Source: an uncultured Pelagibacteraceae bacterium (lineage in GTDB: Bacteria; Pseudomonadota; Alphaproteobacteria; Pelagibacterales; Pelagibacteraceae). From it: 64,000 nucleotides of DNA. Position 1 is the first letter of the stretch. Every line of letters begins with the position of its first letter. The position numbers were made by a program, and so were the translations under genes. The stretch lies in contig CACORJ010000001.1 of NCBI GenBank assembly GCA_902629575.1, forward strand, positions 144,271 through 208,270. Direction: 5' to 3'. This document shows positions 5,081-34,507 of the stretch, one piece after another. A model generated the notes under the pieces. The model had not been told where the DNA came from. It was given only the letters and a program-made list of their open reading frames with translations, and made no database searches.

Positions 5081-6827
5081 ATATTATTTATCAATTATTT
5101 TATTAACTCTTTTTGTCAATTTGAATGTAAAAGCCGAAGATAAACCAATTGATATATGGAATATAGAACAAAAGGAAATAGAGGGAAATAATTCAACTAA
5201 TAAGAAAAAAATTGAAAAAATTGAAAACGAACAAACATCACAATCTAGTGTCTACAATTTACAATCTCAAGAGGAATTAAATAAAGTTCTAGTAGAGTCT
5301 TCAGTCAATTCTCAGGAAATAAAAATTATAGGTCTTTATGATCCTGAGGATTACAGTTTAAAAATTGATATGTGGTCAAATTCTAATGGTGATCAATTAA
5401 AATATCTTTTTTCAAATTTATCAAAAATTCAATTATCAAATGATGCTACAGAATTAATGAACATAGCTTTATTAACTAATTCATATCATCCTGATATAAA
5501 TATGAAAAAAAATGAATTTTTAAAAATCAAATCTGATTGGTTAATCAAAATTAATGATAGAGAGCTGATTGAGGAATATTTACTTAAAAATCAAATACTT
5601 AATTTACATCCTGAACTAACTAGATTCTTGGTAGATCAGTATTTATCAGAATCAAATATTGAAAAAGCGTGTGATTTGTTTTTCAAGAACAACGAAGTTA
5701 TTGAAAATGAATACTTATCGAAGTTTAATCTTTATTGCCTAATAAATGCTGGCAGATCAGATGAAGCACAATTAATTTTTGATTTGAAAAAAGAACTTGG
5801 TTTTAATGATGAATATTTTGAAAATAAAATAAATTATTTATTTGGATACAGCAATGAACCTAATTTAGAGATTTCAGAAAATTCTATTTTAGACTTTCAT
5901 TTAGCACATAGAACAAATGTAGATTTTATTTTTGAACCAAAAACAAACACTAGTCCACTAATATGGAGGTATTTATCAACTTCTAATTTATTATATAAAA
6001 TTGATGAAATTGATATTTTAGAAATAGATAAGATTTTATTAATTGAGAAGGCCACTCATGATAAAAATTATCCTGAGAGTGATTTATTTTCTTTATATAA
6101 AAGATTTCAGTTCAATATAAATCAACTTTTAAATGCTCTAGAACTTTATAAATCTTTATCAAATGTTGAGGCTAGAGCATTAATTTATCAAAAAATATTA
6201 TTAGAGTCAGACGATAAAAAAAAAATAGAACTCCTTAAAATTTTGAAAGATTTATTTAAAAAAGATGGTTATGAAAATGCTTTTGATAAGGAATTAATAA
6301 AATTTTTAGATGAAATAAATCCTGAAGAGGTTCCATCAAATTTCACAACATTTTATAATGATAATTTATTTGATGAATCAAAAAAGAAAAATAATATAAA
6401 ATTTAATAAAGATATACTGCATCAATCAAAAATAGTGAACTATTTTAATGGAGATTTCGCTAATTCTAAAATTGAAAAAGATTTAAATAATTTTTTGAAA
6501 AAAATAAAAAAAAACAAGAAATATTTTCTATCTAAAAAAGATATTATTTTAATTGAGTCAATTAAATCAGATGGTATTAAAATTTCAAAAAAATACGATG
6601 ATCTATATGATATAAATGATTTTGATATACCCACAGATATTCAGGTAATGATAAATAACAAAGAGATTGGCTTAACACTATTGAGAATAATTGAAGTAAT
6701 TGGTCAAGACGATCTCGAAGCATTAGATGAAGATACTATTTATTTCATAATTAGTGCCCTTAATCAATTAGATATCGATTATATTAGAAATAAGATTTTA
6801 TTAAAAGTTCTTCCTTTAAAAGTTTAG
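5055..6827 (+). CDS. Predicted exported protein of unknown function, 590 aa
   Basis: The N-terminus reads as a Sec signal peptide: a basic start, a hydrophobic core (YYLSIILLTLFVNLNV) and an AxA-like site with cleavage probably after residue 27 (VKA). The mature protein is acidic and Asn/Lys/Glu-rich, begins with a low-complexity linker (about 30-75), and then looks all-helical with recurrent Leu-rich amphipathic helices, perhaps an alpha-solenoid. I see no catalytic motif and no further membrane span. It overlaps the 59-aa membrane protein upstream and sits 22 bp before def, so it heads the def-fmt-truA group. Function is unknown. Confidence 0.75.
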   Translation: MKILKLLNKYYLSIILLTLFVNLNVKAEDKPIDIWNIEQKEIEGNNSTNKKKIEKIENEQTSQSSVYNLQSQEELNKVLVESSVNSQEIKIIGLYDPEDYSLKIDMWSNSNGDQLKYLFSNLSKIQLSNDATELMNIALLTNSYHPDINMKKNEFLKIKSDWLIKINDRELIEEYLLKNQILNLHPELTRFLVDQYLSESNIEKACDLFFKNNEVIENEYLSKFNLYCLINAGRSDEAQLIFDLKKELGFNDEYFENKINYLFGYSNEPNLEISENSILDFHLAHRTNVDFIFEPKTNTSPLIWRYLSTSNLLYKIDEIDILEIDKILLIEKATHDKNYPESDLFSLYKRFQFNINQLLNALELYKSLSNVEARALIYQKILLESDDKKKIELLKILKDLFKKDGYENAFDKELIKFLDEINPEEVPSNFTTFYNDNLFDESKKKNNIKFNKDILHQSKIVNYFNGDFANSKIEKDLNNFLKKIKKNKKYFLSKKDIILIESIKSDGIKISKKYDDLYDINDFDIPTDIQVMINNKEIGLTLLRIIEVIGQDDLEALDEDTIYFIISALNQLDIDYIRNKILLKVLPLKV

Positions 6828-30311: not shown

Positions 30312-31194
30312 TTTCTTCAGTGCTTATAACAGAATTTTTCTTTAACAATATTGATAATAAAGTTCCAATTTTTTCAGATAAATCTTTTCTTTCAACTATT
30401 AAATCAACAAATCCTGTTTTCTGGACATATTCACTTGTTTGAAAGTTTTCCGGCAGTTCTTCTTTGACTGTTCCTTGTATAACTCTTTTTCCTGCAAAGG
30501 CTATTAGAGATCCTGGTTCAGCAATATGAATATCGCCTAACATTGCATAAGAAGCAGTTATTCCTCCAGCAGTGGGGTCAGTTATTAATACAAGATATGG
30601 AAGGTTATTATTCTTTAATTCATTAATAGCTAATGTTGTTCTAGTCATTTGAGATAGTGATATTAAACTTTCCATCATTCTCATCCCGCCACCTGCACTT
30701 ACACAAATAAATGGAGTTTGATTCTCAATAGCATGCTGAATTCCATATAAAAAAGCCTCACCCTCAGCCGAAGCCATTGAAGCACCTAAAAATTCGAAGT
30801 CAGATGCAACTGCTGTTACTTTAATATTATTAATATTTCCACAAGCAACTAACATTCCACACTCAAGACCAGTTTTTTTACGAGCACTTTTTAATCTATC
30901 TTTATATGTTTTTGAGTCTGTCCAGTTTAAAGGGTCATCTTTAGGAATTGGTGTTTTAAAAATTTCATAATTATCTTTCCCAAAAAGAATATCAAATCTT
31001 TGATTAGGCTTTATTCTATGATGTTTATTACAATCTGGGCAAACCCATAAATTTTTTTCTAAATCTTTTTTCAAAATTGGGCCTTTACAACATGAAGTCC
31101 AGTCGCTATTTGCTATCTCCTCCTTAGAGGCTCTTTTATGAATAGCAGTTTTTATTTTTTCACCTGCTTTAATTATTTTTGTAATCCAATTCAT
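30265..31194 (-). CDS. accD: Acetyl-CoA carboxylase carboxyltransferase subunit beta AccD
   Basis: A 309-aa AccD with the N-terminal four-Cys zinc ribbon (SCCKGPILKKDLEKNLWVCPDC) and the crotonase-like carboxyltransferase core (SAGGGMRMMESLISLSQM; DPTAGGITASYAMLGDI). With AccA (52.1 kb) it transfers CO2 from biotin to acetyl-CoA, the first step of fatty-acid synthesis. It overlaps trpA by 4 bp and folC by 47 bp, so it is embedded in the trp-containing operon. Confidence 0.96.
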   Translation of the reverse strand: MNWITKIIKAGEKIKTAIHKRASKEEIANSDWTSCCKGPILKKDLEKNLWVCPDCNKHHRIKPNQRFDILFGKDNYEIFKTPIPKDDPLNWTDSKTYKDRLKSARKKTGLECGMLVACGNINNIKVTAVASDFEFLGASMASAEGEAFLYGIQHAIENQTPFICVSAGGGMRMMESLISLSQMTRTTLAINELKNNNLPYLVLITDPTAGGITASYAMLGDIHIAEPGSLIAFAGKRVIQGTVKEELPENFQTSEYVQKTGFVDLIVERKDLSEKIGTLLSILLKKNSVISTEENETPEDSQSLTKAAS

Positions 31195-31991
31195 TTAATT
31201 TTATCTTTAAGTTTTTTAACAATACTAGTAACATTTGTGACAGCATTTTGTCCCCTTTTAATAGAATTAGTTATTTCCTTGCAAATTGCACTTCCAACAA
31301 CCAAACCGTCAGCTTTTTTGAGTGATTTTATTGTTTTTTCAGTAATTCCAAATCCAATTACCACATTTTTAGATTTCTTTTGGTTTTTAATTTTAAAATA
31401 TCGCTCCAATATTTTTTTAGAGGATACTTTTAATTTGCCTCCTGTAGTTGAAAGCATACTTATATAATAAACCATATCATGAGAGTCGTTGATTATTCTT
31501 TTCAATCTTAGCTTAGATGTAGTAGGTGAAACTAATTGAATAAAATTAATTCTATTTTTTTTACATTTTCTAGCAAAAGATTTATTTTCTGGATAAGGTA
31601 AATCAACAACTATCAATCCATCAATTTTTGACTTTTTACATTTTTCTAAAAATTTATTTTCATTGTATTGAAAAATCATATTGTAATAACCCATTAGTAT
31701 TATAGGTTTATTTTTTTTTATTTTTTTAAAGTCTTTAGCTATTGAAAATACATCATTAATTTTAATTCCATTTTTAATGGCTCTATAAGCGCTAGTTTGA
31801 ATTTGACCACCATCTGCAATAGGAGTATTGTGTGGAAAGCCTAGTTCACATATATCAGCATAATTAGAAATTGATTTTAAGATTTCTAAAGATTTTTTTT
31901 TAGTATCATCTCCAGCTACTGTGTAAGTAAGCAAAGCTGGTCTATTTTCTTTTTTAGCATTTTTAAAAGCACTGTTAATTAAAGAACTCAT
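31191..31991 (-). CDS. trpA: Tryptophan synthase alpha subunit TrpA, divergent
   Basis: A 266-aa TIM barrel that cleaves indole-3-glycerol phosphate. Catalytic Glu49 (ICELGFP) and Asp60 (PIADGG) sit exactly at E. coli positions. The loop between them reads PHNTPIAD instead of the usual PFSDPLAD, so Asp56, which contacts beta Lys167 in the classical complex, is Thr. Loop 6, usually SRAGVTG, reads SMLSTTGG. The substrate-binding VIGFGI and VVGSAI are kept. Overlaps trpB by 1 bp and accD by 4 bp. Confidence 0.88.
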   Translation of the reverse strand: MSSLINSAFKNAKKENRPALLTYTVAGDDTKKKSLEILKSISNYADICELGFPHNTPIADGGQIQTSAYRAIKNGIKINDVFSIAKDFKKIKKNKPIILMGYYNMIFQYNENKFLEKCKKSKIDGLIVVDLPYPENKSFARKCKKNRINFIQLVSPTTSKLRLKRIINDSHDMVYYISMLSTTGGKLKVSSKKILERYFKIKNQKKSKNVVIGFGITEKTIKSLKKADGLVVGSAICKEITNSIKRGQNAVTNVTSIVKKLKDKIK

Positions 31992-33223
31992 TATTTTTTA
32001 CCTAATCTTTCCTTTAAAATATCTCTATCTTTTTTTGCATCACCACACGAATTAACAATTATAATTGTATCTTCGCTTAATTTAGGAGCAATTTTAATTG
32101 CTTCTGCAAATGCGTGACTTGGTTCCAAACTGGGATTCAAATTTTCATATTTAGTCACCATTTGATGAGCATTTAAAGCTTCTTCATCTGTTGCATAAGT
32201 ATATCTTGCTCTTTTAGTATCCTTCAAAAAACAGTGCATAGGACTTACACCAGGATAATCCAATCCAGCGCTTATAGATTCAGTCTCATTTATTTGTCCC
32301 TCTTTATTTTGGCATACATAAGAAGCTGCACCATGTAATATTCCAATTTTAGTTTTATTACTTAAAGGAGCTGCATGAAGTTTTGATTTTTGAGGTCCAC
32401 CTGCTTCAACACCTATTAATTCAATTTTTTTTTTATTATAGTCAATAAACTCACTCCAAAATCCATATGCTGAACTTCCACCCCCAACACAGTTAATTAA
32501 TTTTATTTTATTTGGAATATTTTTAAATTCAGATTTCAATTGTAATTTCAATTCTCTAGAAATTTGTGCTGTACTCCAGCCACAAATTTTAACAAATATA
32601 TTTGGACCAACAGTGCTTCCAACACACATATGAGTGTTATCACAATTTGATACCCAATATCTCATACATTCACTTACAGCATCAACTAACGTTTGGCTTC
32701 CAGAGTAAACAGGAACTATTTCGGCTCCATTTTTTCTAATTGCATTACAGTTAGGTTTTTGTCTTTTAATATCCCTTGCGCCCATGAATATTTTACATTT
32801 AAGGCCAAATTTTTTTGCAGCCATACTTAACATTTTTCCAGCATAACCAGCTCCAGTATCTCCAACTATATATTTTTTACCCATTTCCTTACAAATAAGA
32901 GCATGAACAGTTGCATTATATATTTTATGTGCGCCCCCATTTGCCTCAGAAACAACCTTTGCCCAAATTTGAGCACCACCTAGTTTTTTTGTTAAATTAT
33001 TAAGTTTTACAAACGAAGTAGGAGTTCCAATATAATTTTTGAAATAATAATCTCTTTTTTTTAGAAATTTTTTATTGTTTCTTAATTTTTTAAATTCATT
33101 TGTTAAATCTTCTACAGGTTTTTTTAAGGTTTCAGGAATAAAACTCCCCCCAAATTTACCGCCCCAAAAGCCATGTTGATCATGCTGATCAATTAATGGA
33201 ATCCCTTTTTTAAGTTTCATCAT
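31991..33223 (-). CDS. trpB: Tryptophan synthase beta subunit TrpB, divergent active site
   Basis: A 410-aa PLP enzyme that condenses indole and serine. The PLP lysine is kept as Lys100 in GGAHKIYN, with phosphate-binding CVGGGSSA and the ISAGLDYPGVSP segment. The usual ETGAGQHG reads DTGAGYAG, so the catalytic Glu (E. coli 109) is Asp122. The SGSATLKDA loop reads SGSQTLVDA (Lys167 is Val), and the PLP-pyridine Ser377 region reads VNSCGDAKKD. Genomic position between trpF and trpA supports a tryptophan role. It overlaps trpF by 14 bp; a second Met could reduce this to 11. Confidence 0.85.
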   Translation of the reverse strand: MMKLKKGIPLIDQHDQHGFWGGKFGGSFIPETLKKPVEDLTNEFKKLRNNKKFLKKRDYYFKNYIGTPTSFVKLNNLTKKLGGAQIWAKVVSEANGGAHKIYNATVHALICKEMGKKYIVGDTGAGYAGKMLSMAAKKFGLKCKIFMGARDIKRQKPNCNAIRKNGAEIVPVYSGSQTLVDAVSECMRYWVSNCDNTHMCVGSTVGPNIFVKICGWSTAQISRELKLQLKSEFKNIPNKIKLINCVGGGSSAYGFWSEFIDYNKKKIELIGVEAGGPQKSKLHAAPLSNKTKIGILHGAASYVCQNKEGQINETESISAGLDYPGVSPMHCFLKDTKRARYTYATDEEALNAHQMVTKYENLNPSLEPSHAFAEAIKIAPKLSEDTIIIVNSCGDAKKDRDILKERLGKK

Positions 33224-33836
33224 GTGCCCGTTTCATCTTATTTAAAAATATATCTATTTTGGATTTATCCTTTAACCCAGAAGTTTCTAGACCCCCAGAT
33301 ATATCTATAATATCTGCTATTTCTTTATAATATTCAAGATGGTCATTTATCTGAATGTTACCAGCTATCATTAATGGTTTTTTTATCTTTATTTTTTTAA
33401 TAAGTTCATGATCGAAAGCCATACTTTTTTCATAGCCTTTACTATCAAACAAATAAATGTCAGTTACCTCAGAAAACAAATGATATTTTTGAACATCGCT
33501 TTCTTCTACTACAGTTAAAGCAGTTATAATCTTTCTATTATATTTTTCTCTAATTTTTTTGATTTCTTCAGGTGTGCAGTCATATATCTGGTAATAATCA
33601 AAAGGCATTTGTTTAATTTTTTCTAAAATTTCCTCGTCAGGCTTAACCAGTACTGCCACAAAATAAGATTTCTTTTTATCTAAAGTTAATAGTTCGTTTA
33701 ACTTCTCAACCTCAACATATCTTGAGCTTTTTTTATAATTGCAAATAAAACCAATAAACTTAGGTGGATATTTATGATTAATTATAAAACTTAGAGTATC
33801 GAGATCTGAAATCCCACAAATCTTACAACCTTTCAT
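33210..33836 (-). CDS. trpF: Phosphoribosylanthranilate isomerase TrpF
   Basis: A 208-aa TIM-barrel isomerase of tryptophan synthesis. The N-terminal GCKICGI (catalytic Cys), KFIGFICNYKKSSRYV, and IYLFDSKG with a catalytic-type Asp are typical, and IDISGGLETSGLKDKSKI is the phosphate-binding end. It directly precedes trpB, and its start shares a base with the pyrF stop. Confidence 0.92.
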   Translation of the reverse strand: MKGCKICGISDLDTLSFIINHKYPPKFIGFICNYKKSSRYVEVEKLNELLTLDKKKSYFVAVLVKPDEEILEKIKQMPFDYYQIYDCTPEEIKKIREKYNRKIITALTVVEESDVQKYHLFSEVTDIYLFDSKGYEKSMAFDHELIKKIKIKKPLMIAGNIQINDHLEYYKEIADIIDISGGLETSGLKDKSKIDIFLNKMKRAHDET

Positions 33837-34507
33837 TAGGCTAAATGATTGATTAATGTTTGAATGTTTTTTTTTATGTTACCATTAGTAATTGGTCTTC
33901 CAATTACTAGCCAATCACTTCCATTTTTATATGCCTGTTTTGGCGTTAACACTCTTTTTTGATCATTTAATTTTGATTTGAATCTTATTCCGGGTGTTAT
34001 AATTTCTTTCTTAAATACTTTTCTAACTATTTTAACTTCTTGCGCACTACAAACAATGGCATCTAATTTTGCTTTATTTGCTAACATAGCTTGTTGGTAA
34101 ACTAACTTTTTAACATCTTTATTAAAACCAATTTCTTTAAGAGCTTTATTATCCAAAGACGTTAAAATTGTTACACCCACTAATCTAGTTCTGCCAGAAG
34201 CCTTCTTAGCTGCTTTTAAAGCCTCTAATCCTGAGTTGATATGTATGGTGCAATAATTAAATTTAAGATCTTTGATTGCCTTTATAGCTGAGGAGCAAGT
34301 ATTTGGTATATCTGAAAATTTGTAATCTCCAAAAGTTACTTGATTTTTTAATTTTGAAACAAACTTTCTGCCATTTTTTGAATTTAAAAACTCTAATCCA
34401 AACTTATAACCTATTTTTAATTTTGAAGTCTTTGATTTTTTAATTATCCCTTTTATTTTTGGTATATTTGTGCTGTCACAAGCTATAAATATTTTATTCT
34501 TTTTCAT
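33836..34507 (-). CDS. pyrF: Orotidine 5'-phosphate decarboxylase PyrF
   Basis: A 223-aa TIM barrel that decarboxylates OMP to UMP. The catalytic Asp-Lys-Asp array is present in FGDYKFSDIPNT (family: LDLKFHDIPNT), with IFIACDS at the N-terminus and TPGIRF and WLVIGRPIT for the phosphate. It overlaps ihfB by 14 bp and trpF by 1 bp. Confidence 0.93.
   Translation of the reverse strand: MKKNKIFIACDSTNIPKIKGIIKKSKTSKLKIGYKFGLEFLNSKNGRKFVSKLKNQVTFGDYKFSDIPNTCSSAIKAIKDLKFNYCTIHINSGLEALKAAKKASGRTRLVGVTILTSLDNKALKEIGFNKDVKKLVYQQAMLANKAKLDAIVCSAQEVKIVRKVFKKEIITPGIRFKSKLNDQKRVLTPKQAYKNGSDWLVIGRPITNGNIKKNIQTLINHLA

Follow-up and report, generated by a model that had tools for sequence, protein, structure and literature searches.

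The trpB and trpA genes of this SAR11 genome probably encode a working tryptophan synthase, the sole one of the cell, which belongs to a SAR11-specific type (type A) and would make tryptophan from indole-3-glycerol phosphate (IGP) and serine using a rebuilt network for closing and allostery. For substrate channelling and inter-subunit allostery this enzyme is the textbook case, and SAR11 are among the most abundant bacterial groups and the commonest bacteria of the ocean. The window, i.e. the whole stretch of 64,000 nucleotides that was analysed, comes from a Pelagibacteraceae genome of 1.06 Mb (27 contigs, 89.5% complete). Its trpF-trpB-trpA genes are flanked by pyrF and accD, with trpA and the end of trpB sharing one base. 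Features are listed in the table below; residue numbers are anchored on E. coli MG1655 TrpB and TrpA.

Table. Genes and diagnostic residues of the type-A tryptophan synthase locus (window positions; the residue number in the window protein is given first)
Feature	Position	Strand	Evidence or conservation
trpF, phosphoribosylanthranilate isomerase, divergent type, 208 aa	33210..33836	-	PF00697 75 bits, cut-off 22.7
trpB, tryptophan synthase beta subunit, SAR11 type A, 410 aa	31991..33223	-	TIGR00263 390 bits; PDB TrpB matches to 1.8e-100; TM 0.87-0.96 to solved TrpB
TrpB K100 (K87), PLP lysine in GGAHK, kept	32924..32926	-	161/161 type A
TrpB D122 (E109D), indole-activating carboxylate	32858..32860	-	D 161/161 type A; E 31/31 canonical
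TrpB Y127-A128 (Q114Y, H115A), substrate carboxylate loop and indole sub-site wall	32840..32845	-	near-fixed in type A; roles from PMC9512447
TrpB A161 (R148A), classical closed-state partner of Gln114	32741..32743	-	A or S 145/150
TrpB V180 (K167V), lost inter-subunit contact	32684..32686	-	161/161
TrpB S251 (N236S), PLP phosphate loop	32471..32473	-	161/161
TrpB D395 (R379D)	32039..32041	-	146/150
trpA, tryptophan synthase alpha subunit, cognate type A, 266 aa	31191..31991	-	TIGR00262 208.8 bits, cut-off 102
TrpA E49, catalytic, kept	31845..31847	-	158/158
TrpA T56 (D56T), lost inter-subunit contact	31824..31826	-	T, A or C 147/148 type A; remaining one gap
TrpA D60, catalytic, kept	31812..31814	-	157/158

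With 390.1 bits, the window TrpB misses the TIGR00263 cut-off of 392.45, which is exceeded in 16 of 42 and in 64 of 198 SAR11-order genomes; the scores are sharply split, with full-length genes of most SAR11 at about 320-406 bits and the canonical alphaproteobacteria listed at about 630-665. The predicted model (pLDDT 84) has the TrpB fold. Homology to TrpB2 is distant only, since type A reaches 90 bits there against TIGR01415/PRK12391 cut-offs of 366-519, and is paired with trpA. The alpha subunit passes the TIGR00262 cut-off and has both catalytic acids. Type A shares with the canonical Salmonella/E. coli enzymes (TIGR00262/TIGR00263) the fold, the PLP lysine, beta R141-D305, alpha E49 and D60 and the operon pairing, and differs from them by E109D, H115A, Q114Y, R148A/S, K167V, N236S and R379D in TrpB and by F54H, D56T and G181S in TrpA.

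These replacements were assessed over 161 type-A alignment rows and, column by column, by comparing 150 distinct type-A with 58 canonical TrpB sequences, the latter being mostly top-scoring alphaproteobacteria plus eight others, a weighting that somewhat flatters their apparent invariance. Type A replaces 41 of the 151 near-invariant canonical columns, while the beta core residues K87, R141, D305 and E350 are kept, including the R141-D305 salt-bridge residues (R in all 161 rows, D in 160 with one gap). Across related type-A TrpB (150-161 sequences), Asp109, Val167 and Ser236 are exceptionless and Ala115, Tyr114 and Asp379 nearly so, whereas E109, H115 and K167 are all present in 58/58 canonical sequences. 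The claims of the earlier note that TrpB keeps its PLP lysine but has Asp for catalytic Glu109 and Val for Lys167 therefore hold throughout the type, and a sequencing error is ruled out by the presence of D109 and V167 in every row, from many independent genomes. That note had not listed H115A, Q114Y, R148A/S, N236S and R379D, nor N89Y, N171S, Y186M and others. It had also singled out the Ser377 region; there, the residue itself is Cys, an ordinary state because 23 of 31 canonical alphaproteobacterial TrpB have it too, and the true oddity of the motif is the change of R379 to D, plus that of G380 to A or S.

In TrpA, 6 of 47 near-invariant columns are replaced, including F54H, D56T/A/C and G181S, and the retention of Glu49 and Asp60 next to a Thr in place of Asp56 in the window protein, as first described, extends to the whole type with T, A or C at position 56. 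Alpha56 and beta167, which we take to be in contact across the subunits of the classical complex, change in exact concordance, as had been proposed from the window alone: of 200 distinct TrpB/TrpA pairs, the 51 that have a beta167 Lys all have Asp or Glu at alpha56, and the 149 that have another residue at beta167 all have a non-acid at alpha56, with the 147 type-A pairs each combining T, A or C with V. This 200/200 is a count of sequences and not of evolutionary events; possibly no more than one or two of these underlie the co-loss, which is statistically weak since it could be a single event. It is nevertheless reasonable to read the two subunits as a co-evolved pair whose closing mechanism differs, because the concordance is exact and there is no second trpB. 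Our search of the open-access literature, outside which most subscription papers lie, found no papers on E109D or on K167/D56.

The type-A pair very likely still makes tryptophan, given the sole trpB, the selection on it, the trpC and trpD genes of relatives, the TrpB fold match and reports on P. ubique. We know of no assayed enzyme of type A. No second trpB, canonical or other, was found in the genome of the window, in which trpB is single-copy among four PLP-fold-II genes (the other three being cysK-, diaminopropionate ammonia-lyase- and thrC-like), and single-contig relatives have one strong TrpB match each. The gene is under strong purifying selection (dN/dS of 0.05-0.065 against close relatives). 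P. ubique reportedly synthesises the full set of 20 amino acids (PMC5764234), and its strain HTCC1062 has, according to PMC2395257, a single trpB from the divergent cluster. With the TrpA catalytic acids kept and trpC and trpD present in relatives, these reports speak against the shifted substrate that the earlier note had offered as an alternative to altered closing. Loss of the upper pathway was considered, as trpC and trpD are found in type-A relatives and absent from the window's assembly, and rejected: contig 18 stops some 100 bases beyond lexA, at the place where a relative has the start of trpC, so that the absence is an assembly gap. A search for a gene of the other flank gave no match.

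TrpF divergence was rejected as part of the tryptophan synthase change, type-A TrpB being accompanied by several TrpF types or by none adjoining; one genus (L272 and L273, in G042 and G016) has no trpF between pyrF and trpB. The pyrF gene of the window (33836-34507) is 92-93% identical to that of L043, L045 and L068, and 51-54% identical to that of L063, L099 and L263, though trpB and rpsA of the latter are at 84-92%; pyrF seems to be exchanged at the trp locus too. In the single-contig genome G040 (L274, about 5477-6273), trpA is broken by a frameshift or a sequencing error into one open frame of 177 aa and another of 96 aa.

Type A appears confined to SAR11: nothing approaching it was found in 398 proteobacterial genomes, the best non-SAR11 match having 410 bits versus 849. 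Among 50 other genomes of the same genus (all at least 94% complete), 44 have a type-A match (85% identity in the single-contig genome G026), three have type B (G074, G078, G176), one has type D (G160) and two have no assembled locus (G156, G174). More broadly, no loss of trpBA is shown in seven SAR11 genomes without a match that were inspected: G156, G174, G571, G572 and G044 are also without accD, and the contigs of G574 and G595 stop at the locus.

The same syntenic site is occupied by other trpBA versions, namely type B (G078, G074, G176, G579, G590), type D (G160, G602), a canonical form (G215) and a B-like form (G510). In seven of these genomes (L256 to L262, i.e. L256, L257, L258, L259, L260, L261 and L262, in G078, G160, G602, G579, G590, G215 and G510, respectively), the non-type-A genes lie between trpF and accD, several with window-like flanks. 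Because the flanks of G078 and G579 are close to those of the window (rpsA 83-91%, accD 84-87%), with B-type TrpB merely 34-38% identical to the window TrpB, trpBA has been exchanged in place within SAR11. The versions differ in their closing residues: (i) type A has T/A/C at alpha56 with V at beta167, mostly Y114 with A/S148, and R141-D305; (ii) type B has E56-K167, Q114-K148, and R141 with Q305 or T305; (iii) G510 has E56-K167, A114-K148 and L141-N305; (iv) type D has T56-L167, M114-I148 and K141-D305. In quick trees of TrpB and TrpA, types A, B and D each lie on one side of a branch (SH-aLRT 100) and B joins G510 (99); long branches make the placement of A and D uncertain, D standing apart from A in the quick tree, as would fit an independent loss of the alpha56 acid and of beta167 Lys in D, and an AU test not rejecting an A+D grouping (p 0.66). 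A virus or plasmid origin was rejected: there is no relative of at least 60% in phages or plasmids and none in viral contigs. Note that three phage-filed records (OR848387.1, CAKLQH020000002.1 and MT835865.1) hold a bacterial-looking trpB, one with adjoining trpC, which is probably host contamination. Separately, L269 (G009) is at 82% for TrpB and 68% for TrpA and at 32-39% for rpsA, accD, folC and trpF relative to the window, a pattern of either trpBA transfer between SAR11 genera or unusual constraint.

In the classical enzyme, Glu109 stabilises the charge at indole N1, Gln114 bonds to Asn145 and Arg148 solely in the closed state, closing is stabilised by Arg141-Asp305, and the Phe306-His115 distance decides whether indole fits; PMC9512447, from which these roles are taken, calls it an open question how the indole sub-site is opened. 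Type A replaces two closing-network pairs together, alpha D56-beta K167 by T/A/C with V and beta Q114-R148 by mostly Y with A/S, and keeps the carboxylate at beta109 in a shortened form. From these residue identities and published work on another species, we infer that the subunits would still close, via R141-D305 and new apolar contacts, and that their coupling may be weaker or differently wired. H115A would make the indole pocket roomier, perhaps to the point of fitting indole without the allosteric switch, since His115 is the wall whose distance to Phe306 sets the pocket size. Altered TrpA dependence is shown to occur naturally in the stand-alone TrpB of Pelodictyon luteolum (PMC11917138), where the six residues concerned lie mostly far from the active site; in type A, for which we infer it, the residues are catalytic and contact ones. 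More tentatively, SAR11 might hold several interchangeable cassettes at one locus, each with a different part of the closing network dismantled (alpha56-beta167 and beta114-148 in A and D; beta305 in B and G510, and also beta141 in G510), to which type A would add an indole pocket pre-sized by H115A, making TrpB independent of the allosteric switch.

Could this be an ordinary tryptophan synthase that drifted on a fast-evolving lineage, its replacements compensated one by one and its kinetics and allostery still E. coli-like? The catalytic core and R141-D305 are retained, and the genes of this SAR11 locus do diverge widely, with rpsA, accD and folC at 34-39% relative to genus g9; in that same comparison, however, trpB, at 82%, is better conserved than any other gene of the locus, and neither its strong purifying selection nor active-site changes as atypical as fixed E109D and H115A, at positions that the canonical sequences compared keep without exception, fit drift well, which makes this account rather unlikely.

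It is improbable that the pair makes a product other than tryptophan, such as a beta-substituted alanine formed with another nucleophile. Two indole-pocket residues, Glu109 and His115, are changed, as is Tyr186, presumably near the pocket, which would suit such a shift, and E109D alters substrate preference in Salmonella. Against it, no other trpB is present in this genome or in complete relatives, the trpC, trpD and trpF genes and the TrpA acids are maintained, and P. ubique reportedly makes every amino acid. A TrpB working largely standalone on free indole, next to a TrpA acting as a separate indole-glycerol phosphate lyase, would explain why both the inter-subunit pair and alpha-G181 are lost; we regard it as very improbable, as trpA and trpB are adjacent and type-matched in every locus compared and so minute a cell would be expected to leak free indole. 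A tryptophan synthase with a rebuilt closing network thus remains our preferred reading.

A divergent SAR11 TrpB1 cluster, the same group as type A, was published in 2008 by Kagan et al. (PMC2395257); the excerpts of that paper describe no residues, no TrpA partner changes and no types B, D or canonical at the locus. Neither the residue-level rewiring with its matching TrpA change nor the cassette exchange with at least three other trpBA versions was found described in the open-access literature, most subscription papers lying outside that search; the cluster itself was already known. An abundant group of bacteria appears to run its tryptophan synthase with neither Glu109 nor His115 and with the alpha56-beta167 pair lost, so that nature seems to have rebuilt a model enzyme of allostery. 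The sister versions found in related cells (A, B, D and canonical) differ in exactly these closing-network elements, and provide a natural test of which of them are needed.
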